This document shows positions 3 through 10,288 of a stretch of 10,288 nucleotides of DNA, in pieces. Position numbers and translations under genes: made by a program. The stretch lies in NCBI GenBank assembly GCA_007128995.1, contig SKWJ01000217.1, forward strand, positions 1-10,288, written 5' to 3'. How positions within the stretch are numbered: position 1 is the first letter of the stretch; each line of letters begins with the position of its first letter. This DNA is from Paracoccaceae bacterium. Its GTDB lineage: Bacteria > Pseudomonadota > Alphaproteobacteria > Rhodobacterales > Rhodobacteraceae. The notes beneath the pieces are model-generated. The model was not told the origin of the DNA. It did not search any database and was given only the letters and a program-made list of their open reading frames with translations.

Positions 3-875
3 CTGGGCGTGGATCTGGATGTGAAGCTGGCAGGCGGGCTGGTGGTTGCGACCACCGACACCCAGATGCGCCAGATCGAAGCAAAAGCGCAGATCGAACG
101 CGCGGCCGGGGTCGAAACAGAAATCCTGACGCGCGAAGACCTTCGCCGCATCGCCCCATATCTGACCACAGATGCGATCGGCGCTGGTTTCTGCGCCATG
201 GAAGGCAAAGCCAACCCGTTGCGCGCGACGCCAGCTTTGGCCGCGGCTGCCCGCGCGGCGGGGGCCATAATCCGCACGCATATGCCCGTAACCGGACTGG
301 AACCCGCGGCGGGCGGCTATCGCATTACCACACCAGAGGGGCCTGTGCATGCCCGGCGTGTCATTAACGCTGCGGGGGCAAGAGCGGCCGAGATCGGTGC
401 GCTGCTGGGCCTTCGCATAGACCTGCAAGGCTTTGCGCTGCAGGTCACGGCAACGCAGGCGCTGGCGCCGCTTATCCCGCATCTGGTCTATTCGGCTGCG
501 GGCAAGCTGTCTGTCAAACAGGCCCGCAATGGGACCTGCCTTATTGGTGGGGGCTGGGCAGCCAGACAGCGCGTCAATGGCACCCTGAGCCTGATCCCGG
601 CCAACCTGTCGGGGAACCTTGCCACTGCAGCGCAAGTCATTCCGGCGCTTGAAAGCGCGCAGACAGTGCGGACCTGGACCGCTATCGTGAACGGAACCGC
701 CGATTGGCGACCGATTATCGGAGAGGTGCCGGGGCATAACGGTTTCTTTCTTGCTCTGTTCCCATGGATGGGGTTCTCGGCCGGCCCGATGACCGCCCGC
801 CTTGTCGCGGATATGGTCCTTGGACACCCACCACGCCTGTCACTAAAGGGAATTTCCGTTCTGCACGATGGGTAA
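3..875 (+). CDS. FAD-dependent oxidoreductase of the DAO family, 5' end outside the window
   Basis: This is the C-terminal part of a flavoprotein that oxidises amines or amino acids, of the D-amino-acid oxidase/sarcosine oxidase beta fold. The reading frame is open to the left edge. A GTG at position 9 is only an internal valine codon, so the N-terminal FAD-binding GxGxxG segment lies outside the window. What can be seen is a segment reading EGKANPLRATPAL about 65 residues in, an INAAGARA segment typical of the second FAD-contacting strand, and a C-terminal stretch with DWRPIIGEVPG and a GFSAGPMTARLVADMVLG helix, the usual end of these enzymes. The style resembles the beta-type subunits of sarcosine oxidase, octopine oxidase or HcnC, which work with partner subunits; no partner is visible here. 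The gene converges on the GcvPB-like gene and need not belong to the same pathway. The family is fairly certain, the substrate unknown. Confidence 0.85.
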   Translation: MGVDLDVKLAGGLVVATTDTQMRQIEAKAQIERAAGVETEILTREDLRRIAPYLTTDAIGAGFCAMEGKANPLRATPALAAAARAAGAIIRTHMPVTGLEPAAGGYRITTPEGPVHARRVINAAGARAAEIGALLGLRIDLQGFALQVTATQALAPLIPHLVYSAAGKLSVKQARNGTCLIGGGWAARQRVNGTLSLIPANLSGNLATAAQVIPALESAQTVRTWTAIVNGTADWRPIIGEVPGHNGFFLALFPWMGFSAGPMTARLVADMVLGHPPRLSLKGISVLHDG

Positions 876-949: not shown

Positions 950-2470
950 TTATGCGAATTTCCGCAGATATGCGCGCCAGGTCATCGCCCATTTTTCCGG
1001 GTCTTCAAAGACATCGCCCTTCAACTGCGCCACTGGCTGATTATGCGGCGCAGATTTGACAAGGTCGGGCGTCTCTCTGGCTTCGCGCACAATCTGAGCG
1101 ACGACATCGATCCACAGATCGATATCCGCCTTTGACCAGAGTTCGCCAGCCTCTGGTGTGAAGGGCTCTGGCACGAGCCATGGCTCGTGGCTCATCCACC
1201 AGGGATCGATGCCATAGTCAGCCATGCGATTTGCAAAATCGAATGTCCCGACACCTGTTTCCTCGAATACTGGCGCGAGTGACCAGCGGGTCATTTCCAT
1301 GCGCGGCGCGGTGATATCCGGGTTCGACCGCACCACCCCGTCAATCTGCGCCAAACGATGATCCATGTAGTTATTCGCCACCACGGAAATATCGGACGCG
1401 AGGTCAATGCCCTCTGCCCCCATCCCGCGCGCCCAGGCATAGGCCTTTACGACCTGCGGAACATTGCCCCAGAACTCCCGGATCTTGCCGCAGCTTTTGG
1501 GACGATCATCGTCCAACGCATAGCGGTCGCCAGTTTTCACCACCAGAGGCGCAGGCATGTAGGGTGCGAGCTGGTCAGTGCAGCCATAGGCCCCGACAGC
1601 GGGCCCACCCCCGGCCTTGGGGGCTCCGAATGTTTTGTGCAACATGAACATGCAGGCGTCGAAACCCAGTTCACGGGCTGACAACTTGCCCATCACACCG
1701 TTGAAATTGGCATGATCATAGAAGATCAGCGCGCCCGCCTCCTTCGCCACGCGAACCCATTCCTTGATCTCGGGGTTGTAGATCCCCATGTCGTCAGGAT
1801 TGTTGATCATGACAAGCGCCGTGCGCTCTGACACTGCGGCTTTCAACGCGTCAAGCGATGGATAGCCGTTCTCTTCCAACGGCAGATTGACGACCTTGAA
1901 CCCGGCCGCCGCCGCTGTTGCGGGGTTACACGGATGCGCCTGGATCGAGGTCACCATCTCTGTGCGGGTTTCCAGTTCACCCCGATCGGCCCAATAGGCG
2001 CGTGCAACCGCTGTCATTGTATAGGCTGCATCGGCACCGCCCCCGGCCTGAAAGACGAACTGATCCATGCCGGAAAGGCTGCGCAGGATCAGGTCGAAAT
2101 CATGCAGGATTTCCAGCACCCCCTGCAATGTATCGGGGTGCTGATAGGGGTGGATTTCAGCCAATTCGGGACGCAGCGTGGCATATTCTGCGGTTTTCGA
2201 ATTGTATTTCATGGTGCATGTGCCGAACAGGCTGACACCCATCATGCCAAGCGTCATCTGACTGAGATGCAGGAAATGGCGCTGCACTTCGAACTCGGTC
2301 AGTTCGGGCAGGTCCGGCCGGTCGGTCCGCATAATGCTTTCTGGCAAGGTCACCCTTGGCAACTCTGCCTCGGGGGCCGGAAAACGCTGGCCGCGCGCGC
2401 CCTCTCGGCCCAGCTGATGGATTACAGGTTCATTCCAGCGCGCAGTCTGAATTTCGCGGGGAGTTGTCAT
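950..2470 (-). CDS. GcvPB-like PLP subunit of a divergent split P-protein
   Basis: 506 residues, the usual length of the PLP-carrying half of a split glycine decarboxylase P-protein. The fold family is clear: FGTCTMKYN at 83-90 matches the family's GSCTMKYN, IHPYQHPDTLQG at 106-117 matches its IHPxQxxETVQG, and the PLP-binding lysine is K279 in LHKTF. Other signatures differ from known glycine decarboxylases: AHGTNPAS is AHPCNPAT (178-185), DGANLNA is DHANFNG (252-258), and the glycine loop PHGGGGPG is PKAGGGPA. The C-terminus has WWMSHEPW where the family has a PPTIYFP-type segment. I therefore keep the fold assignment but doubt glycine as substrate. Start choice: ATG at 2470 overlaps the upstream stop as ATGA, with GAGG seven bases before it; a GTG two codons earlier is a less likely start. 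Last gene of the operon. The T, H and L proteins are absent from the window. Confidence 0.88.
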   Translation of the reverse strand: MTTPREIQTARWNEPVIHQLGREGARGQRFPAPEAELPRVTLPESIMRTDRPDLPELTEFEVQRHFLHLSQMTLGMMGVSLFGTCTMKYNSKTAEYATLRPELAEIHPYQHPDTLQGVLEILHDFDLILRSLSGMDQFVFQAGGGADAAYTMTAVARAYWADRGELETRTEMVTSIQAHPCNPATAAAAGFKVVNLPLEENGYPSLDALKAAVSERTALVMINNPDDMGIYNPEIKEWVRVAKEAGALIFYDHANFNGVMGKLSARELGFDACMFMLHKTFGAPKAGGGPAVGAYGCTDQLAPYMPAPLVVKTGDRYALDDDRPKSCGKIREFWGNVPQVVKAYAWARGMGAEGIDLASDISVVANNYMDHRLAQIDGVVRSNPDITAPRMEMTRWSLAPVFEETGVGTFDFANRMADYGIDPWWMSHEPWLVPEPFTPEAGELWSKADIDLWIDVVAQIVREARETPDLVKSAPHNQPVAQLKGDVFEDPEKWAMTWRAYLRKFA

Positions 2471-3870
2471 TTGCACACCTCTGTCAAAGTTGCTGCCAGG
2501 TGGCGCAGGTCAGCGGCGCTATGCATTTCGGTTACGCAATACAGCGCGCATTGCCCCTGTTCCAGTTCGTGGGAAATATCCTTGCCGCCGAAGATGCGCC
2601 GCGCCCGCAACGCATCGTTGATTTCTGCGACGGTCTTGCCGGTGTCATCGAAATTGACGACAAATTCCTTGAATGTCGTATCCCGCCACAAGACGCGGAC
2701 GCCCGGAATGTCATCGAGCAATGCTTGTGCATAACGGGCCCGCGACAGGATCAGCTGCCCCAGTTCGCGGAAACCTTCGGGCCCAAGAAGACCCATATAG
2801 ACCGCACCCGCAATCGCCCAGAGATAGGTTGAGTTCCCAGTCCAGTCTTTCCCATGCTCGCGCGAACCGTAAGAGTTCTGATGCGCCGCGGCCAACCCGA
2901 ACCCGAACTCGCCCTCGCGCTGTGTCTGCGCGATCGAGACCAGAAACCCGTTATATTCGCGCACATAGCGTTCTTCATCGCGGCTTGCGATAAAGCCACC
3001 AACACCACCGCCGCAATTCATATGCACCCCAAGCGGTTGCACCGGACCGGTGACAATGTCGGCACCGTAATCACCGGGGGCCATCATCACGCCCAGACTG
3101 AGCGGGTCCACCCCGACGATTGTCTCTGCCCCGCACGCACGGGCAGCGGCTGAAATATCAGCCGGGTTTGTTTCGATCGTGCCCAGATAGGCCGGGTTCT
3201 CGAAATAAACGGCGGCGACATTCGGGCCCAGCTTGTCGCGCAGATCACCCATATCAATCTGACCTGTGGCGGGATCGGCCTTCACCTCGACAACTTCGAT
3301 ATGGTTCTCCATTTCCGAAGGCTGGCAATAGGTGTGAATGACCGACAGACGTTCGGGATCGCAATACTGGGGCACAAGGACCCGAGAGCGCCCGGTCAAT
3401 CGCTGCGCCATGCGGATCGCGTGCCCGATGGCACAGCCCCAGCTATAGACCGGCAACTGCACCACATCCAGCTTGAGAAGCGCGCCCAACTGGCTGGAAA
3501 ACTCGAACCACGCCTGATTGCGCCCATGATCAGATTGATAAGACCCCCAGACATTTGTTGCAAATTCCGTGCGGCCCACAATTTCATCCACCACGGCGGG
3601 GACATGGTGCTGCCAGACGCCAGCACCCAGAAAATTCAGGTTGTCCTCGCATGTGTGGTTCTTCTTGAGCTTGCCGAGCAGGTCCTGCTTCAAGGCCATC
3701 TCGCTGGCCAGTTGCGGGGGCAAGTCAAGCGGCGCCTTGCGAAAATGATCCTCTGGTATCTGCGCGAACAGGTCTTTGACCGAGGATGCGCCAATCTCTG
3801 CCAGCATATCCTCGATCGCGCCTGGTGCGGACAAGGCCATCCAGGGATGTCCGGTGTTGTTTAGTGCCAT
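2467..3870 (-). CDS. GcvPA-like subunit of a divergent split P-protein
   Basis: 467 residues, close to the usual 450 of glycine decarboxylase subunit 1, the half that pairs with the PLP subunit and helps form its active site. Family traits are FLGAGVWQHHVPAVVDEI at 80-97 (typical FLGAGxYxHxxPxxVDxI), an EF-x(4)-WGSYQ region, DPLSLGVMMAPGDYGADIVTG near 255-275, and the C-terminal EFVVNF and CVTEMH segments. Several signatures are replaced: TPYQPEISQG reads GSYQSDHGRN (109-118), the DGGTA/DEATA turn reads SWGCA (143-147), YGGPH reads CGGGV, and the SNICSNQAL segment reads DWTGNSTYL (342-350). These are positions that shape the glycine and PLP pocket in true P-proteins. The start ATG at 3870 has AGGAGG at 3878-3883. 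The 3' end overlaps the GcvPB-like start by 4 bp, which suggests translational coupling and a 1:1 heteromer. The exact substrate is unknown. Confidence 0.87.
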   Translation of the reverse strand: MALNNTGHPWMALSAPGAIEDMLAEIGASSVKDLFAQIPEDHFRKAPLDLPPQLASEMALKQDLLGKLKKNHTCEDNLNFLGAGVWQHHVPAVVDEIVGRTEFATNVWGSYQSDHGRNQAWFEFSSQLGALLKLDVVQLPVYSWGCAIGHAIRMAQRLTGRSRVLVPQYCDPERLSVIHTYCQPSEMENHIEVVEVKADPATGQIDMGDLRDKLGPNVAAVYFENPAYLGTIETNPADISAAARACGAETIVGVDPLSLGVMMAPGDYGADIVTGPVQPLGVHMNCGGGVGGFIASRDEERYVREYNGFLVSIAQTQREGEFGFGLAAAHQNSYGSREHGKDWTGNSTYLWAIAGAVYMGLLGPEGFRELGQLILSRARYAQALLDDIPGVRVLWRDTTFKEFVVNFDDTGKTVAEINDALRARRIFGGKDISHELEQGQCALYCVTEMHSAADLRHLAATLTEVCK

Positions 3871-3931: not shown

Positions 3932-5053
3932 TCATGCGGCCCTTATGCGCATCATCTGGGTTTCCCCGGGGCCAGTGCGAACCCGGACATAACCCGAAAG
4001 GCTTTGATCAAGGGCCGCGCACCCGGTATCCACCCATAGGCAAGGCTGCGCCAGGGCGGCAAGTTTCGTGCGTGTGGCCAGAATCTCCAGCGCGCCGCGA
4101 CCACCGGCGGCGCGAATGACATCAGCATGTATCTGTTGATTGCCACGACCAAGCACGAAACCCTGCTGCCCGGTCACACCCAGAACAATGCGGGTTTCAG
4201 ATGTCTGCGCGACAAGCGCCTTGAGTGTTTCGGCACAGGCATCCTGTGCTATCAGCGCGCCCGGTGTCACCGCATCAACACCCAGCAAAGTCGGAACATG
4301 GCCCAAAGCCGATATGACCTGACCCGCGCTGCGTCCCGGACCTACGATCAGGAGGGTATCCGAGGAAACTCCGGCAACAATCTCTTGCGCGGCAAGGGCG
4401 AGGGCCGCCTGATCATCGCGCGGACCGGGTTGTCCTTTGGCAGCCTGCATTCGACGGGGCCGTGACGGAACAGACGCCACCCCGTAAAGTCGCGGCGCAA
4501 TATGGCCGGCGCGTAGGGCAGCTTCGTCGATATCCATGATCTCAACTTCAGATAAGCTGCTCCGCCCTGCGCCGGCGGCAAGAAGATCAGCCAGCAGATG
4601 ACCCGCCGTTGACGGCGACAAGGCAAACACGCCCGAATGCATCTTGACGCCACACGGGATGCCAAGCATCGGCAGGCCCGGTGCAGCCGCCAGAACATCG
4701 CGGGCTGTCCCATCGCCCCCGGCAAAGACGATCAGATCAATCTGCCCGCGCATGGCCGCAACCATCTCGCGGGTGTCGGCCCCGGTGCCCAGCAAGGGCT
4801 GGGCAGGCAGTATCTGAACATCCAGATCAAGGCCGGTCAGCCAGTCAACACCCGCTTGCCCCGGTCCGGCCAGAACTGACACACCCGGACAAGCCCGCGC
4901 AAGGATCTCGAACGCGTGTCTGGCACGCAGGCCCGATTGTGGTTCGGCGCCGCGGCGCAGGGCTTCGGTCACGATATCACGGCCATCCGTGCCTTTCAGG
5001 CCTACCGCACCGCCCAGACCTGCCACCGGGTTGATGACCACACCCAACCGCAT
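3932..5053 (-). CDS. ATP-NAD kinase family protein, AcoX-like
   Basis: 373 residues related to NAD kinase/diacylglycerol kinase-type folds and in particular to the longer ATP-NAD-kinase-like proteins that include AcoX of acetoin operons, whose biochemical role is not settled. Visible motifs are an N-terminal NPVAG (8-12), the nucleotide-binding GGDGTARD (112-119) after a hydrophobic strand, and GIPCGVKMHSGVFA (131-144), typical of this subfamily. It is cytoplasmic, with no signal peptide or membrane segment. I chose ATG 5053 (MRLGVVINPV) because it starts the first beta strand and lies one base after the tctB stop; a longer reading from 5092 would add 13 cysteine- and glycine-rich residues that look like read-through of tctB. 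A 61-bp gap separates it from the GcvPA-like gene. It could phosphorylate NAD or a pathway intermediate; I cannot tell which. Confidence 0.82.
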   Translation of the reverse strand: MRLGVVINPVAGLGGAVGLKGTDGRDIVTEALRRGAEPQSGLRARHAFEILARACPGVSVLAGPGQAGVDWLTGLDLDVQILPAQPLLGTGADTREMVAAMRGQIDLIVFAGGDGTARDVLAAAPGLPMLGIPCGVKMHSGVFALSPSTAGHLLADLLAAGAGRSSLSEVEIMDIDEAALRAGHIAPRLYGVASVPSRPRRMQAAKGQPGPRDDQAALALAAQEIVAGVSSDTLLIVGPGRSAGQVISALGHVPTLLGVDAVTPGALIAQDACAETLKALVAQTSETRIVLGVTGQQGFVLGRGNQQIHADVIRAAGGRGALEILATRTKLAALAQPCLWVDTGCAALDQSLSGYVRVRTGPGETQMMRIRAA

Positions 5054-5054
5054 G

Positions 5055-5516
5055 TCAGAACCACCACACCCGCACCTGCAGGACCGGTGCAATCTGCGTG
5101 AACATGACCCAGAACGCCCCCGCCGAAAGCATCGCCACAGGGATCACAAGCTTCAGGCTTTGCATCGGGCGCGGCGACAGGACCAGCATGGCAACGCACA
5201 GCATGATCGCGGTAGAACTGACAAGCCCGAGGTTGCGCACCAGCCAGAAATACAGCAAGGCCCAGATAACCACGGCACCGACCACGCGCATTGGTACGGT
5301 TTCGGTCTGGCAACTCTCGGGGTAACGAAACGCCTGCCATATCATTAAAAGCGCGGCGGGGATCAGCACCAGAAACATGATCCGCGGGATTGCCATTGGC
5401 CCACCCCCCGGCCCGGGCCGCCAGTGTCCGAAATAGGTGTGCCAAAGCCCCCAGACGCCCAGAACCAGAAGGATACACGCGCCGACAACGAATTTTCGGT
5501 CAAGGTCATGCCGCAT
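5055..5516 (-). CDS. tctB: Tripartite tricarboxylate transporter small membrane subunit TctB
   Basis: 153 residues with about four hydrophobic membrane segments (roughly 9-26, 43-62, 77-113 as a pair, and 119-140), the size and layout of TctB, the small and poorly conserved inner-membrane subunit of TTT solute:cation symporters. The segment PRIMFLVLIPAALLMIWQAF after a glycine/proline-rich periplasmic-like loop is typical. The start was set at ATG 5516 (MRHDLDRKF) because the preceding 36 codons of open frame are arginine-rich and hydrophilic and overlap tctA deeply. With this start the gene overlaps the tctA 3' end by 11 bp, and its stop sits one base before the kinase-like start. The identity is supported mainly by its position next to tctA. 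Confidence 0.85.
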   Translation of the reverse strand: MRHDLDRKFVVGACILLVLGVWGLWHTYFGHWRPGPGGGPMAIPRIMFLVLIPAALLMIWQAFRYPESCQTETVPMRVVGAVVIWALLYFWLVRNLGLVSSTAIMLCVAMLVLSPRPMQSLKLVIPVAMLSAGAFWVMFTQIAPVLQVRVWWF

Positions 5517-7038
5517 CGGGTTGCCCCCGGCGAAAGGTTGCCCAGAAGAACAGCGCCATGACACCGGCCCCGGTCGCATAGATCGCCAGCGCAATCGGGC
5601 TTTGCAGCAGATACCCCCAGTCATTCTGGCCCAGCATCAGCGCTTGTCGCAGCGCGCGCTCGAATCCGGGGCCAAGTATGAAGCCCAATGCCAGCGCGGG
5701 AATTGGTATCCCGAACCCCCGCATCAGAACCCCGAACACACCAGCAGCGACCAGCATCCAGACATCGGTGACCGAATTTGAAATCGCATATGTTCCGACC
5801 ACGGCCAGGGCAACCACGATCGGCAACACGATTCTGGGCGGGATCAGGGAAATCCGGGCATAGTAGGGAAGCAATGCCTTGCTGACCACAAGGTTCATGA
5901 GTGTTCCCAGGACCAGCAGAATGAAGATTGCATAGATGATCGGCATATTTGCTTCGATCATCTGAGGGCCCGGTGTGATGCCCTGCATGATGAACGCGGC
6001 CCCGATCAGGGCAGCGGAACCGCTACCGGGAATACCAAAGGAAAACAATGGAATAAGCGTTGCGCCAGCTGTCGCGCTGTTCCCCGCCTCTGGTGCGGCG
6101 ATACCTTCCATACAGCCCTTGCCGAACTCCTGCGGCCGACGAGACGCACGCTGAGCCAGCGCGTAGCTGAGGAATCCCGCGAGCGTTGCCCCCGCCCCCG
6201 GCAGCGCACCGATGAACGTTCCTGTTGCGCTTCCGATCGTCATCGCCCGCCAAAGACTGCGAAACTCCTGCCGCGACAGCTTGTCCTTGCGCGGATCATA
6301 CCCGGCGTCCTGCGCAACCTGAGCGGCGCGCTGTGCTTCTGTCTGGACGCGCGCGTGAAAACTTCGTCCAACCTGAATCATGATTTCTGACAGCGCGAAA
6401 AGGCCGATCAGCAAAGGGACAAGGCCAATCCCGCCCGCCAGTTCCGGGATCCCGAATGTATAGCGCTGCGCGCCAGTGAAAGGGTCGCGGCCGATCATCG
6501 ACAGCATGACGCCGATAGACGCGGCCGCAAAGCCCCGCACGACACGCCCCTTGTCCAGTGAGGCAATGACAACAATCGACACGATATACAGTGCAAAAAA
6601 GTCGCGCGGCCCGAATTTCAGAGCAAGCGCGGCCAAGGGTGTCGCAATGAAGATCAAGACCATGACACCGGCCAGATCCCCGAATACGGAGGAATACAGC
6701 GCCGTATGCAGCGCGGAATTTGGCCGTCCAGCCTGCTTTGCCGGGTAGCCATCCATCATTGTTGCGGCGGCACCGGGCGTTCCGGGAACGCCAAACATGA
6801 TAGCCGAGATGGAGCCCCCGAACAGCCCCCCCTTGTAAATCCCCATCAACATGCCGATCGCGGCCGCAGCATCCATCGTGAAGACAAAGGGCAGCAGAAC
6901 CGCCATCGCCATATCACCCGAGATGCCGGGAATTGCCCCGACCGTCACCCCAAGAAACACCCCCAGCAGGACCGCCAGCAGGACTTCGGGGCGAAAGGCA
7001 ATATCTGCCGCAAGGGGCAAGAGATCTAGCAGGGGCAA
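5506..7038 (-). CDS. tctA: Tripartite tricarboxylate transporter large permease TctA
   Basis: 510 residues, a polytopic inner-membrane protein that moves a carboxylate delivered by TctC. Family motifs are strong: GVTVGAIPGISGDMAMAVLLP near 30-50, the GMLMGIYKGGLFGGSISAI segment with FGVPGTPGAAATMMDGYP that follows, and in the second half GALPGAGATLAGFLSYA and GIPGSGSAALIGAA, the internal duplicate expected of TctA. The C-terminus has the usual LGFILGPGFERALRQAL. The start codon is TTG at 7038 with GGAG six bases upstream; no ATG or GTG gives as good a fit. The gene order C-A-B differs from the classical tctCBA operon. The substrate is not predictable from sequence: TTT systems carry citrate, other di- and tricarboxylates and aromatic acids. 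Confidence 0.95.
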   Translation of the reverse strand: MPLLDLLPLAADIAFRPEVLLAVLLGVFLGVTVGAIPGISGDMAMAVLLPFVFTMDAAAAIGMLMGIYKGGLFGGSISAIMFGVPGTPGAAATMMDGYPAKQAGRPNSALHTALYSSVFGDLAGVMVLIFIATPLAALALKFGPRDFFALYIVSIVVIASLDKGRVVRGFAAASIGVMLSMIGRDPFTGAQRYTFGIPELAGGIGLVPLLIGLFALSEIMIQVGRSFHARVQTEAQRAAQVAQDAGYDPRKDKLSRQEFRSLWRAMTIGSATGTFIGALPGAGATLAGFLSYALAQRASRRPQEFGKGCMEGIAAPEAGNSATAGATLIPLFSFGIPGSGSAALIGAAFIMQGITPGPQMIEANMPIIYAIFILLVLGTLMNLVVSKALLPYYARISLIPPRIVLPIVVALAVVGTYAISNSVTDVWMLVAAGVFGVLMRGFGIPIPALALGFILGPGFERALRQALMLGQNDWGYLLQSPIALAIYATGAGVMALFFWATFRRGQPDAA

Positions 7039-7110: not shown

Positions 7111-8064
7111 TTAATTCACGCTTTCCAGCGTTTCGCGTACGGTTTCGAAGGTCGCATCATAGATGTCCTGCAAGCCATCCGCGCGCGAGATCGGCCGCGC
7201 ATCGACATTGGCCCGCGCCGCAAGTTCCTGCCCTTCGTCGCTGGCATAGGCCGCTGCAATTCCATCAGACAGATGCGCGACAATGTCCTCTGGCACATTT
7301 GCTGTTGCGAAAATGGTGTACCAGACCGGCATCACCACATCATGCCCCAGCTCTGCCAGAGTTGGCGTATCGGGCAAGGATGGCACGCGCTCGGCAGAGG
7401 CAACAGCCAATGGCACGGCATCCCCGGCTTCGACCGCCCCTGCAATGGTGGTGGGTGTTGTCACAGCAACCGGCACAGTGCCGCCAAGCAGGAACTGGAC
7501 TGTTTCACCACCACCCGATGTCGGGATCTGGTTTGTCGCAAAGCCCGCCAGGTCTTGCAGGCGCAACAACGGCAGATGGCTGGAACTCAGATAGGCCCCA
7601 TGCGTGATTGCAACGCTCCCGGGGTTGGCCTGAGCGGCCGCGATGAACCCTGCAAGATCATCGAAACCGGCATCCGAACGGGCCACGATCGTTGGCGCAA
7701 TCTCGGTCACCTGGGTCAGCGGCACCCAGTCTTCCGGCTGATAGGGGGTATCCTCCAACAGCGGCAGGGTGATCAGCGGGCCGTAATCCGAGATGATCAG
7801 CGTATAGCCGTCATCTCCGTTCTGGCGGACGAAATTGGCGGCATCCATGCCACCGGCACCGGGCATGTTCACCACTTCAACACGCGCGCCCAGATGCGCT
7901 TCGCCGACCTGAGCAAGAATCCGCGCTGCGATATCGATACCGCCGCCCGCACCATAAGGCGTAACGATCCGGATCGGTCCCTCACTCGGGAATTCGGCGA
8001 CAGCCGCCGTGGCACTCAGCAAAAGCCCTATCGTAGCGGACATCGCTATCGTTTTCTTGGTCAT
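7111..8064 (-). CDS. tctC: Periplasmic solute-binding protein TctC of a TTT transporter
   Basis: 317 residues, normal for the TctC/Bug family of periplasmic receptors. The N-terminus is a Sec signal peptide: MTKKT, a hydrophobic core (AMSATIGLLLSATA) and an AVA cleavage site before EFPSEG. The mature part begins with the family's first strand, PIRIVTPYGAGGGIDIAARI, equivalent to the PIRxIVPFxPGGGTD carboxylate-binding loop. A second ligand loop is probably the ASSHLP-type segment, here AYLSSSHLPL. Three ATG codons stand in a row (8070, 8067, 8064). The last is favoured because GAGGGAG ends at 8071, giving a six-base spacer, while the first would have none. First gene of the operon, directly behind a predicted promoter with two operator-like dyads. 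The ligand is unknown; the neighbouring genes suggest an amino- or keto-carboxylate, which is inference. Confidence 0.94.
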   Translation of the reverse strand: MTKKTIAMSATIGLLLSATAAVAEFPSEGPIRIVTPYGAGGGIDIAARILAQVGEAHLGARVEVVNMPGAGGMDAANFVRQNGDDGYTLIISDYGPLITLPLLEDTPYQPEDWVPLTQVTEIAPTIVARSDAGFDDLAGFIAAAQANPGSVAITHGAYLSSSHLPLLRLQDLAGFATNQIPTSGGGETVQFLLGGTVPVAVTTPTTIAGAVEAGDAVPLAVASAERVPSLPDTPTLAELGHDVVMPVWYTIFATANVPEDIVAHLSDGIAAAYASDEGQELAARANVDARPISRADGLQDIYDATFETVRETLESVN

Positions 8065-8099
8065 CATCATCTCCCTCTGGGTTGCAATTCCGTGATTTA

Positions 8100-8187: not shown

Positions 8188-9642
8188 CTATTGAGCCTGC
8201 AATCCGCCGATGCAGGTGTATTTCGTTTCGAGAAAGTCCTCGAGGCCCTGCCAGCCGCCCTCTTTGCCAAGCCCGGATTCCTTGAGCCCGCCAAAGGGCA
8301 CCTCTGGCGTTACGATCAGCACTTCGTTGACGCCGATCAGCCCGTATTCAAGGGCGTCCTGCATGCGGAAGGTCCGGCCAAGGTCGCGGGTATAGACATA
8401 GGCGGCCAGCCCGTAGGTGCTGTCATTTGCCTGCGCAATCAGTTCCTCTTCCGTCTCGAACCTGTAGATTGCCGCGACAGGTCCGAAAATCTCTTCTTGC
8501 GCGATCCGCATTGCCGGTGTCGCCCCGGCAACGACAGTCGGCTTGAAGAAACATCCGCCCTGCGGATGGCGGCCACCCCCCGTCAGTACGCTTGCGCCAC
8601 CGCTGACGGCATCATCTATCAGGCCCTGTGTCTTCTCGACCGCCGCATCGTCTATCATCGGCCCGATTTCGACGCCGTCCTGTGCGCCGGGGCCGACGAC
8701 CATCTTCTCCGTACGCGCGACAAGCCTTGCGACAAACGCATCATGGATGCCCGACTGAACAAAAATACGGTTCGAGCATATGCAGGTCTGCCCGGCATTG
8801 CGAAACTTCGCGATCATCGCGCCGTCAATCGCACGGTCCAGATCAGCGTCATCAAAAACGATGAACGGCGCATTGCCACCCAATTCCATCGACACTTTCT
8901 TGACAGTATCCGCACAGTCCCGGATCAGCATCTTGCCGACTTCGGTCGACCCGGTGAATGTCAGCTTCCGTACCTTCGGGTTGCGGGTGAGTTCCCCTGC
9001 GATCACACGCGCCGATCCGGTCACAATATTGACCGCGCCCGCCGGGAACCCCGCCATTTCGACAAGTACGCCCCAGACAAGGGCCGAGTAAGGGGTTGCA
9101 CTCGCAGGCTTGACAACGACGCAACACCCCGCAGCCAGCGCCGGGCCGATCTTGCGCGCGAGCATGGAAGACGGAAAATTCCAAGGTGTGATCGCAGCCA
9201 CAACGCCAATCGGGTGACGTGTCGTCATCAGCTTTCTGCCAGCCCATGGAGATGGGATCACATCGCCCATACTGCGACGCGCCTCTTCCGCGAACCAAAG
9301 CACATAGGCCGCAGATGACGCGACTTCGGCACGCGCTTCCGGCAGCGGCTTTCCCTGCTCTGCCGTCATGATGCGCGCAAGCGCCTCCTGATGCTGCGAG
9401 ATCAACGCGGACAGCCGACGCAGCTTCTCGGCACGCGCGCTGACGGGGTCTTCACGATACTTTAGAAATGCCGCATAGGCCGCATCAATCGCGCGCGCTG
9501 TGTCATCCGCTGTTGCGCTGGGAACGTGCCCAAGTGTTGAACCGGTTGCGGGATCAGTCACAGCAAATGTCGCGCCATCGCTGGCCTGCCCCCAGACACC
9601 CCCAATCAGATTGGCGCCGATATCTTTACCCAGAAACTGCAT
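8188..9642 (-). CDS. NAD(P)-dependent aldehyde dehydrogenase, succinate-semialdehyde dehydrogenase (GabD)-like
   Basis: 484 residues, nearly the length of Escherichia coli GabD (482). It oxidises an aldehyde to a carboxylate with NAD(P), probably a short semialdehyde, in the cytoplasm. Key residues are all present: oxyanion-hole N155 in TPWNFP, cofactor-binding K178 in KPAS, the general base E253 in MELGGN and the nucleophile C287 in GQTCIC. A second cysteine, C289, gives the CxC pair found in GabD-type enzymes. EIFGPV and the C-terminal LETKYTCIG also match the GabD group. Glutarate- or sulfo-semialdehyde enzymes look similar, so the substrate stays open. The start is ATG 9642, with GGAGG at 9647-9651 four bases upstream; the longer open frame to 9714 would run through the predicted promoter and operator and is rejected. 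It has its own promoter but shares the operator core with the tct operon downstream. Confidence 0.93.
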   Translation of the reverse strand: MQFLGKDIGANLIGGVWGQASDGATFAVTDPATGSTLGHVPSATADDTARAIDAAYAAFLKYREDPVSARAEKLRRLSALISQHQEALARIMTAEQGKPLPEARAEVASSAAYVLWFAEEARRSMGDVIPSPWAGRKLMTTRHPIGVVAAITPWNFPSSMLARKIGPALAAGCCVVVKPASATPYSALVWGVLVEMAGFPAGAVNIVTGSARVIAGELTRNPKVRKLTFTGSTEVGKMLIRDCADTVKKVSMELGGNAPFIVFDDADLDRAIDGAMIAKFRNAGQTCICSNRIFVQSGIHDAFVARLVARTEKMVVGPGAQDGVEIGPMIDDAAVEKTQGLIDDAVSGGASVLTGGGRHPQGGCFFKPTVVAGATPAMRIAQEEIFGPVAAIYRFETEEELIAQANDSTYGLAAYVYTRDLGRTFRMQDALEYGLIGVNEVLIVTPEVPFGGLKESGLGKEGGWQGLEDFLETKYTCIGGLQAQ

Positions 9643-9822: not shown

Positions 9823-9999
9823 ATGAAACGGGCGGAGACAGATCACACGATATGTGAACTTTTGTTTATTATCTACGCGGGAGCACTGAAGTTACGAAAG
9901 TGGTACTGTCCACCTGAACGCACGGTGTACGCTGTCAGTATTGCGTCAGCGGCGACCGCGCCCACCCGGACGCAGCCCACTCGCCAAGCTTCATTCTGA
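9823..9999 (+). pseudogene. Probable remnant of a divergent GntR/FadR-family regulator (N-terminal winged helix only)
   Basis: A 58-codon plus-strand frame begins MKRAETDHTICELLFIIYAG and continues with GALK, then PPER six residues later. In GntR regulators of the FadR type the same order occurs near the N-terminus: a helix with I-x-x-L-x-x-x-I, then GALKPGxxLPPERELA and a GVSRxxVREAL recognition helix. Here the proline-glycine turn is replaced by LRKWYC, about three residues seem lost after PPER, and AVSIAS stands where GVSRAS would be. The frame then runs into residues without family likeness and stops inside the 3' end of the opposite-strand permease gene. The effector-binding C-terminal domain is missing. 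The position, divergent from the aldehyde dehydrogenase across an operator, is where its regulator would be expected. No good ribosome site precedes the ATG. The likeness is short, so chance cannot be excluded. Confidence 0.5.
9855..9868. promoter_or_regulatory. Fourth, degenerate copy of the AACTTTTGTT core
   Basis: TGAAC-TTTT-GTTTA shares the 10-base core and orientation with the tctC and aldehyde dehydrogenase dyads, but one arm position is changed. It lies inside the GntR-like fragment, where GAACTTTTGTTT encodes ELLF. It is either an upstream auxiliary site or a coincidence of that coding sequence. Confidence 0.3.
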
Positions 10000-10288
10000 T
10001 ATGGCGGCGCGGCGCTTCCTGACCCATGCCTGCCAAAGCGGCAACAGAAGCAGACCGACAGTCGCAACCACGAACCCGGCCGCGATGGGCCGTTCCAGAA
10101 AGACCATCGGGTCACCCCGCGAGATCAGAAACGCACGCCGCAAATTGGTTTCGATCAACGGGCCAAGCACAAATCCCAGCAACAGCAATGCCGGGCTGAA
10201 TCTGGCGAGTGCAAGCAAATACCCGGCAAGCCCGATACCCGCCACTGCAATGATGTCAAAAGTCAGCCCCCGGACCGAATAGACACCA
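9991..10288 (-). CDS. C-terminus of a second TctA-type permease, 5' end outside the window
   Basis: The frame is open to the right edge; 98 residues are visible, beginning GVYSVRGLTFDIIAVAGIGL. This matches the end of TctA proteins, where GVYSVxxxxFDxxxxxxFGxxGY is followed by LxLGxxLGPLxExNLRRAxxxSxGD; here it reads LLLGFVLGPLIETNLRRAFLISRGD at roughly 45-69, then a last membrane helix and a short basic tail (WVRKRRAAISE). It is a different protein from the complete TctA in this window, whose equivalent segment reads LGFILGPGFERALRQAL. A GTG at 10245 is an internal codon, not a start. It probably ends another TTT operon on the same strand as the aldehyde dehydrogenase gene. Whether the two systems share substrates cannot be judged. 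Confidence 0.9.
   Translation of the reverse strand, partial: GVYSVRGLTFDIIAVAGIGLAGYLLALARFSPALLLLGFVLGPLIETNLRRAFLISRGDPMVFLERPIAAGFVVATVGLLLLPLWQAWVRKRRAAISE

Follow-up and report, generated by a model that had tools for sequence, protein, structure and literature searches.

What reaction is catalyzed by a split P-protein whose glycine pocket motifs have been replaced? We examined this question for a 10,288-nucleotide stretch of DNA (hereafter, the window) from a Paracoccaceae bacterium (assembly GCA_007128995.1, contig SKWJ01000217.1), in which two adjacent genes encode relatives of the P-protein subunits GcvPA and GcvPB (hereafter, PA and PB) and a third gene beside them encodes a putative kinase. 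Our analysis indicates that the pair is very probably not a glycine decarboxylase and acts on a different substrate. We further propose, with a rough probability of 0.42 for the whole chain of steps set out below, that PA and PB form a P-protein-derived split enzyme dependent on pyridoxal phosphate (PLP), which no longer carries the glycine pocket motifs and acts in series with the adjacent kinase. The three genes are as follows.

950–2476, minus strand: GcvPB-like PLP subunit; 508 amino acids from GTG 2476, with the likely start at ATG 2470 (506 amino acids)
2467–3870, minus strand: GcvPA-like partner subunit; 467 amino acids; pocket loops GSYQSDHGRN, SWGCA, CGGGV, and DWTGNSTYL
3932–5053, minus strand: linked kinase of the nicotinamide adenine dinucleotide (NAD) kinase/diacylglycerol kinase/sphingosine kinase superfamily, with a GGDGTARD motif; the open reading frame (ORF) extends to 5092, and the start at ATG 5053 was inferred from the annotated start in Roseicitreum

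An intact pair with replaced pocket motifs

Both ORFs of the pair are intact, and the PB start codon at 2470 overlaps the PA stop codon in an ATGA sequence, which fits the translational coupling of two full-length genes described in the original prediction. In fold and in hidden Markov model family, the pair belongs to the P-proteins: sequence searches of the PDB matched its members to P-proteins with E values of 9.7e-78 and 6.5e-58, and the predicted PB structure (mean pLDDT, a per-residue confidence score, of 74.8) resembled 1wyt_B, 1wyu_B, and 9a73_B with template modeling scores of 0.75–0.78. The pair also passed the cut-offs of the NCBIfam equivalog models for GcvPB (477.8 bits; cut-off, 441) and GcvPA (401.4 bits; cut-off, 364), and automatic annotation would therefore name it gcvPA and gcvPB, exactly as had been anticipated; all seven annotated plasmid relatives carry these names.

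We compared the pair with 88 PA and 92 PB family rows, after dropping four PA rows in which too little PA aligned; one locus of genome G053 (L119) is the same contig as another (L040), leaving 87 PA and 91 PB distinct rows. These rows were recruited by similarity to the window protein, and conservation within them is therefore partly a matter of descent. The canonical side of the comparison consisted of solved P-proteins and 24 reference rows, comprising 22 fetched loci, the Thermus chains, and the fused GcvP of the source genome itself.

All seven replaced motifs reported in the original prediction were present in the window sequence, and alignment to canonical proteins confirmed that they are true departures in both subunits. 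The canonical counterparts given in that prediction differ slightly from the reference set: here the third A motif mostly reads FGGPY or FGGPH, with YGGPH found in the fused GcvP of the source genome, and the DGGTA position is mostly DGATA or DGSTA. The family as a whole did not retain the canonical pocket motifs. In PA, PYQxExxQG was replaced by G-x-x-x-S-D-H-G-R-N and SNICTN by D-W-T-G-[NH]-S, whereas in PB the consensus was [ATS]-H-P-C for AHGTNPA, D-H-A-N for DGAN, and P-K-x-G-(V)-G-G-P-A for PHGGGGPG. The diagnostic columns were altered throughout: P to G and S to D in PA (88/88 each), loss of the glycine of AHG and that of DGAN in PB (92/92), and H to K in the PHGGGGPG column (91/92, with the deep member L117 retaining H). 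Other motif columns varied or were partly kept, such as the N of HGTN in 71 of the 92 PB rows. Conversely, residues serving the cofactor persisted. The PLP lysine, predicted as K279 of the B subunit, is indeed K279 when counted from ATG (K281 from GTG), and this lysine of the LHKTF motif was kept in all 92 family and 24 reference rows; the H of AHGTN and the D of DGAN, which have PLP-binding roles in fold-type I enzymes, were likewise kept in all 92 PB rows.

Many residues were common to the family and canonical P-proteins, but 21 PA and 34 PB columns had switched between near-fixed states (L117 left out). Cations were kept in the changed loops, namely PB K287 (91/91 rows without L117) and the arginine of the PA DHGRN loop (80/88 rows). 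An excerpt of PMC7259800 marks Tyr161 and Tyr164 of the human P-protein as active-site residues; in our own mapping from sequence, their spacing fits the YTPY of the altered PA loop. Relative to the nearest relative, Roseicitreum, the ratio of nonsynonymous to synonymous substitution rates was approximately 0.03–0.04 (PB, 0.050/1.52; PA, 0.064/1.49), with synonymous sites near saturation.

A separate clade with a broad host range

In a maximum-likelihood PB tree of 59 sequences, built with a quick method and midpoint-rooted, the 35 family rows included (of 92) were separated from the 24 reference rows by a branch of 1.96 with SH-aLRT support of 100, although long-branch warnings apply to the fused GcvP, L129, L126, and L117. 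The pair thus stood apart from canonical P-proteins, including the solved Thermus P-protein, rather than inside their clade. Identity values also showed a gap: among the 40 listed of 158 plasmid matches, eight were at least 49.7% identical to the window PB and the next was 36.6% identical, and in 144 Alphaproteobacteria genomes, four were at least 44% identical, one was 38% identical (G072, which has a canonical-motif pair), and the others were at most 36% identical.

We found 198 PB relatives in genomes and examined the best 80. The pocket swaps recurred in relatives from several phyla: family hosts included several Proteobacteria classes, Actinomycetota, one Bacteroidota contig (among the best 80 of 198), and one haloarchaeal plasmid. 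The Bacteroidota and Actinomycetota rows were nested among proteobacterial rows in the PB tree, which suggests transfer.

The deep member L117 (6834–14608, genome G137) carries PA, PB, the kinase, a trimethylamine methyltransferase-like gene (under the model cut-off), and a malate-CoA ligase beta gene (over the cut-off). On a plasmid of Deinococcus sp. QL22 (L126, 2032–7053), another gcvPA–gcvPB pair with mostly canonical pocket motifs (PYQAELMQG) is followed by genes for a MOSC protein and a class III aminotransferase; no gcvT or gcvH was found within 3.5 kb of that pair.

Glycine cleavage genes elsewhere in the genomes

In the source genome (79% complete), contig C410 carries a cluster of gcvT, gcvH, and a complete fused gcvP; the pair is therefore not the sole P-protein of this genome, which settles the check for a separate canonical gcvP suggested with the original prediction. 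A second H-protein was not found in this genome; the sole match adjoins the canonical gcvP. Among 39 other genomes with the family (37 chosen genomes behind isolate loci, G053, and G064), 38 had a further P-protein match (at least 383 bits) and an H-protein. The exception was G053 (90% complete), in which the divergent pair was present with no H-protein match and no other P-protein; this may reflect genome incompleteness or a pair that works without an H-protein.

Near the pair itself, tblastn with canonical H- and T-proteins detected neither gcvH nor gcvT in any of 93 loci (the 92 family loci and the G072 locus, some of them short), whereas the same search found H in five of five and T in four of five control loci. 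Linkage to gcvH or gcvT was hence not observed in the family.

A kinase linked to the pair

In 84 of the 88 loci, a kinase gene lay no more than approximately 1.5 kb from the pair: upstream on the same strand in 77, downstream in two, and on the opposite strand in five. Three of the four loci without an adjacent kinase were contig ends; the fourth, from the haloarchaeon, has a kinase elsewhere on the plasmid. A divergent PB occurred in four of 144 Alphaproteobacteria genomes and in four of 397 Pseudomonadota genomes (E ≤ 1e-90), with the kinase adjoining in every case; the two samples share the source genome, giving seven distinct genomes, and three of them (G053, G447, and G514) correspond to loci L040, L027, and L011 among the 88. 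Pairwise distances of the kinase and PB were correlated (85 loci, Mantel r = 0.81, 0 of 1000 permutations), as were those of PA and PB (0.96).

The kinase contains the domains PF01513 (51.2 bits; cut-off, 25.5) and PF20143 (38.3 bits; cut-off, 23.7), and its GGDGT motif was invariant in all 34 aligned kinases. A PDB sequence search with the kinase returned no match. The best kinase matches in Foldseek, which were weak, were sphingosine kinase 1 and diacylglycerol kinases; substrate-binding proteins matched the kinase model with scores equal to those of kinases, and the rank order of fold matches therefore says little.

Gene neighborhoods

The remaining features of the window are as follows.

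3–875, plus strand: flavin adenine dinucleotide (FAD)-dependent oxidoreductase (DAO family), convergent with the operon and cut by the window edge; complete in L093
5055–5516, minus strand: TctB, the small membrane subunit of a tripartite tricarboxylate transporter; the ORF extends to 5624, with the start placed by comparison with Roseicitreum
5506–7038, minus strand: TctA, large membrane subunit of the tripartite tricarboxylate transporter; start uncertain
7111–8070, minus strand: TctC, solute-binding protein of the tripartite tricarboxylate transporter
8188–9642, minus strand: aldehyde dehydrogenase, succinate-semialdehyde dehydrogenase (SSADH) type; ORF to 9714, start inferred from Roseicitreum

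On the minus strand, the aldehyde dehydrogenase, TctC, TctA, TctB, kinase, GcvPA-like, and GcvPB-like genes follow one another in an operon-like order. Plasmid pRA01 of Roseicitreum antarcticum has an identical gene run, with a PB 92% identical to that of the window. The window aldehyde dehydrogenase scored 611.9 bits against the SSADH model, under its cut-off of 646, and the FAD-dependent oxidoreductase at the left edge may lie outside the pathway of the operon. A short minus-strand ORF at 9991–10245 looks by eye like the C-terminus of a further TctA-type membrane protein; it had no match in Pfam.

We also counted genes within 4 kb of the cassette in 80 genome loci, labeling each cluster from one scanned member; the gene caller misses genes (PB was recovered in 74 of 81 loci), and all counts are lower bounds. 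The cluster of short-chain dehydrogenases was found in at least 44 loci, dihydrodipicolinate synthase-like aldolases in at least 40, FAD amine-oxidase-like genes in at least 36, old-yellow-enzyme-like genes in at least 29, and amino-acid ABC permeases in at least 21. Less frequent were AMP-ligases and class III aminotransferases (at least 10 each), zinc alcohol dehydrogenases (at least six), and the SSADH-type dehydrogenase cluster (at least four, besides the window operon and Roseicitreum). An aldo-keto reductase/RidA fusion lay near the kinase in at least 15 loci and was encoded on the strand opposite to it in 14 of these (e.g., L007, 5893–7401; one member scanned); an excerpt of PMC5636819 attributes imine/enamine deaminase activity to Rid proteins. 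In Rhodococcus, Natronosalvus, and G457, the cassette had nearby deacylase/peptidase-family genes, members of families that can act on N-acyl amino acids.

The common theme of these neighborhoods is amino compounds, imines, and aldehydes, and no single substrate fits all loci. We considered beta-hydroxyaspartate, beta-hydroxyglutamate, threonine-derived amino alcohols, and hydroxyectoine as substrates; none had direct evidence, and the neighborhoods were too varied to choose among them.

A proposed kinase–PLP enzyme series

We propose the following series for the window operon. The transporter would bring in a carboxylate or amino compound, and the kinase would phosphorylate a hydroxyl adjoining an amino-bearing carbon, such as that of a beta-hydroxy-alpha-amino acid or amino alcohol. 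The PA/PB dimer would then attach the amine to the PLP carried by the conserved lysine and expel the phosphate, possibly together with CO2, releasing an enamine or imine that would hydrolyze to an aldehyde and ammonia; the aldehyde dehydrogenase would finally oxidize the aldehyde. An enamine from such an elimination could be handled by a RidA-type activity together with an aldehyde dehydrogenase. This order, a kinase and then a PLP lyase, is the most economical reading: once phosphorylated, a hydroxyl beside an amino-bearing carbon makes a good leaving group. PB K287 and the arginine of the PA DHGRN loop could be the residues that hold the phosphate, judging from their conservation in the alignment.

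We count in favor of this series the separate clade, the switched columns, the kinase linkage, the correlated distances, the loop cations, the imine- and aldehyde-related neighbors, and a gene of Peptoclostridium acidaminophilum. On a plasmid of this organism (L132, 7992–10068), a kinase relative overlaps a PLP gene by eight bases, and the nearest models of that PLP gene were HisC and CobD, both under their cut-offs; the substrates of HisC and CobD are O-phosphorylated amino compounds.

Several observations weigh against the proposed series. The haloarchaeal kinase lies approximately 54 kb from the pair. The linked kinase could be an NAD kinase: among its fold matches, the solved structures of NAD kinases, of diacylglycerol kinases, and of sphingosine kinase 1 were tied. 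Kinase relatives occurred in 45 of the 397 Pseudomonadota genomes, only four of which had a divergent PB, and 27 of the 29 kinase loci newly fetched from these 45 matches had no PA/PB within approximately 1.5 kb. Six neighboring genes of such kinases, scanned at five loci (L164, L153, L147, L150, and L148), encoded PdxB or PdxB-like proteins (three loci), EpmC, a hydroxylase of elongation factor P, with a DAO-family protein (one locus), and chorismate synthase (one locus). In G072 (L143, contig C47, approximately 6259–11034), a Kbl/BioF-like gene, the kinase, and a PA/PB pair whose motifs are all canonical lie in a row; the sole H-protein match of this genome is on another contig, and its PB is frame-broken in the assembly. 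The kinase is therefore not specific to the swapped pocket, and we rejected the idea that it is, given also the stand-alone kinases. The rule holds one way: the divergent pair is accompanied by the kinase, and the kinase is not always accompanied by the pair. Finally, the deep members L117 and L176 carry the kinase yet keep the canonical histidine at PB position 287, which weakens the argument for a phosphate pocket.

A more specific version of the series is that the kinase makes O-phospho beta-hydroxy amino compounds and that the P-protein descendant is a PLP phospho-lyase, possibly a decarboxylating one, the two forming a previously unrecognized enzyme pair. We put this forward tentatively.

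Alternative explanations

A possible alternative is that PA/PB is a decarboxylase of some other amino acid in its unphosphorylated form, with the kinase acting downstream in the same pathway on an alcohol or sugar-like product. This agrees with the ancestry of P-proteins, which are decarboxylases, and with the many residues shared with canonical members; moreover, the short-chain and zinc alcohol dehydrogenases counted above could make or use the hydroxyl, the position or strand of the kinase varies in seven of the 88 loci, and L117 and L176 keep the canonical histidine at PB position 287. However, it leaves the gained loop cations unexplained. The linkage data are silent on the order of the steps, and so they speak neither for nor against it.

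It is unlikely that the kinase serves locally as an NAD(H) kinase raising NADP(H) for the operon dehydrogenases, with PA/PB acting independently on some amino acid. Both NAD kinase-related domains scored over their cut-offs, NCBI names some plasmid relatives NAD(+)/NADH kinase, and NAD kinases were among the top fold matches, but the source genome has a second NAD kinase-like gene (contig C55, 37.9 bits), the best Foldseek matches, which were weak, were other kinases, and the gene accompanies PA/PB through differing neighborhoods.

We regard as very improbable a pair that still decarboxylates glycine or a close analogue by using an H-protein encoded elsewhere in the genome. The equivalog scores, the P-protein fold, the H-protein present in 38 of the 39 genomes, and the occurrence of the kinase with a canonical-motif pair would all be compatible with it; on the other hand, the diagnostic pocket columns were altered in every family row, the family forms a separate clade, gcvH and gcvT were recovered from the control loci and not from the 93 loci, and G053 has the pair with neither an H-protein match nor another P-protein.

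Lastly, although motifs that are near-invariant in canonical enzymes are lost, a degenerating, functionless gcvPA/gcvPB duplicate can be dismissed, because the genes are intact and overlapping and under strong purifying selection, the columns have switched to new near-fixed states, and identical new residues recur in relatives across phyla. Neither of the two outcomes named in the original prediction as refuting it occurred. Its preference for a new substrate or reaction over decay is thus well supported, with the changed activity itself suggested by sequence. That prediction did not include the linked kinase, the wide spread of the family, or the catabolic operon.

Comparison with known systems

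The closest known system is the split P-protein GcvPA/GcvPB (Thermus 1wyt/1wyu), with which the window family shares the fold, the split heterodimer, the PA–PB order, the LHKTF motif, and the model family; it differs in the replaced loops of both subunits, its separate clade, the linked kinase, and the H- and T-protein genes, which were not found in the loci. CobD is a threonine-phosphate decarboxylase that works with a threonine kinase. There too, as in our proposal, the PLP enzyme comes after a kinase and takes an O-phosphorylated amino acid as its substrate, although CobD belongs to a PLP subfamily different from that of PA/PB.

Ethanolamine-phosphate and 5-phosphohydroxylysine phospho-lyases, together with hydroxylysine kinase, were reportedly described by Veiga-da-Cunha in 2012. 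By analogy, they may share with the proposed series the logic of a kinase followed by phosphate elimination on a fold-type I PLP enzyme, and that logic only: their PLP enzymes are relatives of class III aminotransferases, whereas the window has a P-protein descendant and a kinase of the NAD/diacylglycerol kinase superfamily. PB did not belong to the class III aminotransferases; its best models were GcvPB (477.8 bits) and, in Pfam, Aminotran_5 (40.5 bits), and the only class III model in its match lists, which we take LysJ to be, scored 19.8 bits (cut-off, 700). The kinase and PLP phospho-lyase logic, with class III PLP enzymes, is described for ethanolamine phosphate and hydroxylysine in an excerpt of PMC8154272.

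The window kinase also has relatives by name. It probably belongs to the same family as the kinase of aco operons and shares with it the annotated name "ATP-NAD kinase family"; we take the corresponding names to be AcoX and COG3199. The partner of the AcoX-type kinase is the acetoin dehydrogenase complex, whereas that of the window kinase is a PLP enzyme. An excerpt of PMC6722718, which also treats hydrogen cyanide synthase, places a kinase gene within the aco (acetoin) operon. Among the papers listed, "ATP-NAD kinase" and "glycine dehydrogenase subunit" occur together in PMC6722718 and PMC10672838; in the limited listings of the open-license literature, we found no paper about the cassette.

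Implications for annotation and metabolism

The P-protein is treated as an enzyme of one reaction, and the NCBIfam equivalog names carry over to this divergent family. Metabolic models of genomes with the family therefore probably hold a second, false glycine decarboxylase. A three-gene cassette conserved across several phyla in differing neighborhoods points to a recurrent metabolic step, and a kinase family annotated only as NAD kinase gains a partner and hence a testable role. If the phospho-lyase proposal is true, the split P-protein scaffold would, to our knowledge, gain its first assigned reaction other than that of glycine, and genes annotated as glycine cleavage would be in use in varied catabolic clusters across Proteobacteria, Actinomycetota, and Bacteroidota as well as in a haloarchaeon.

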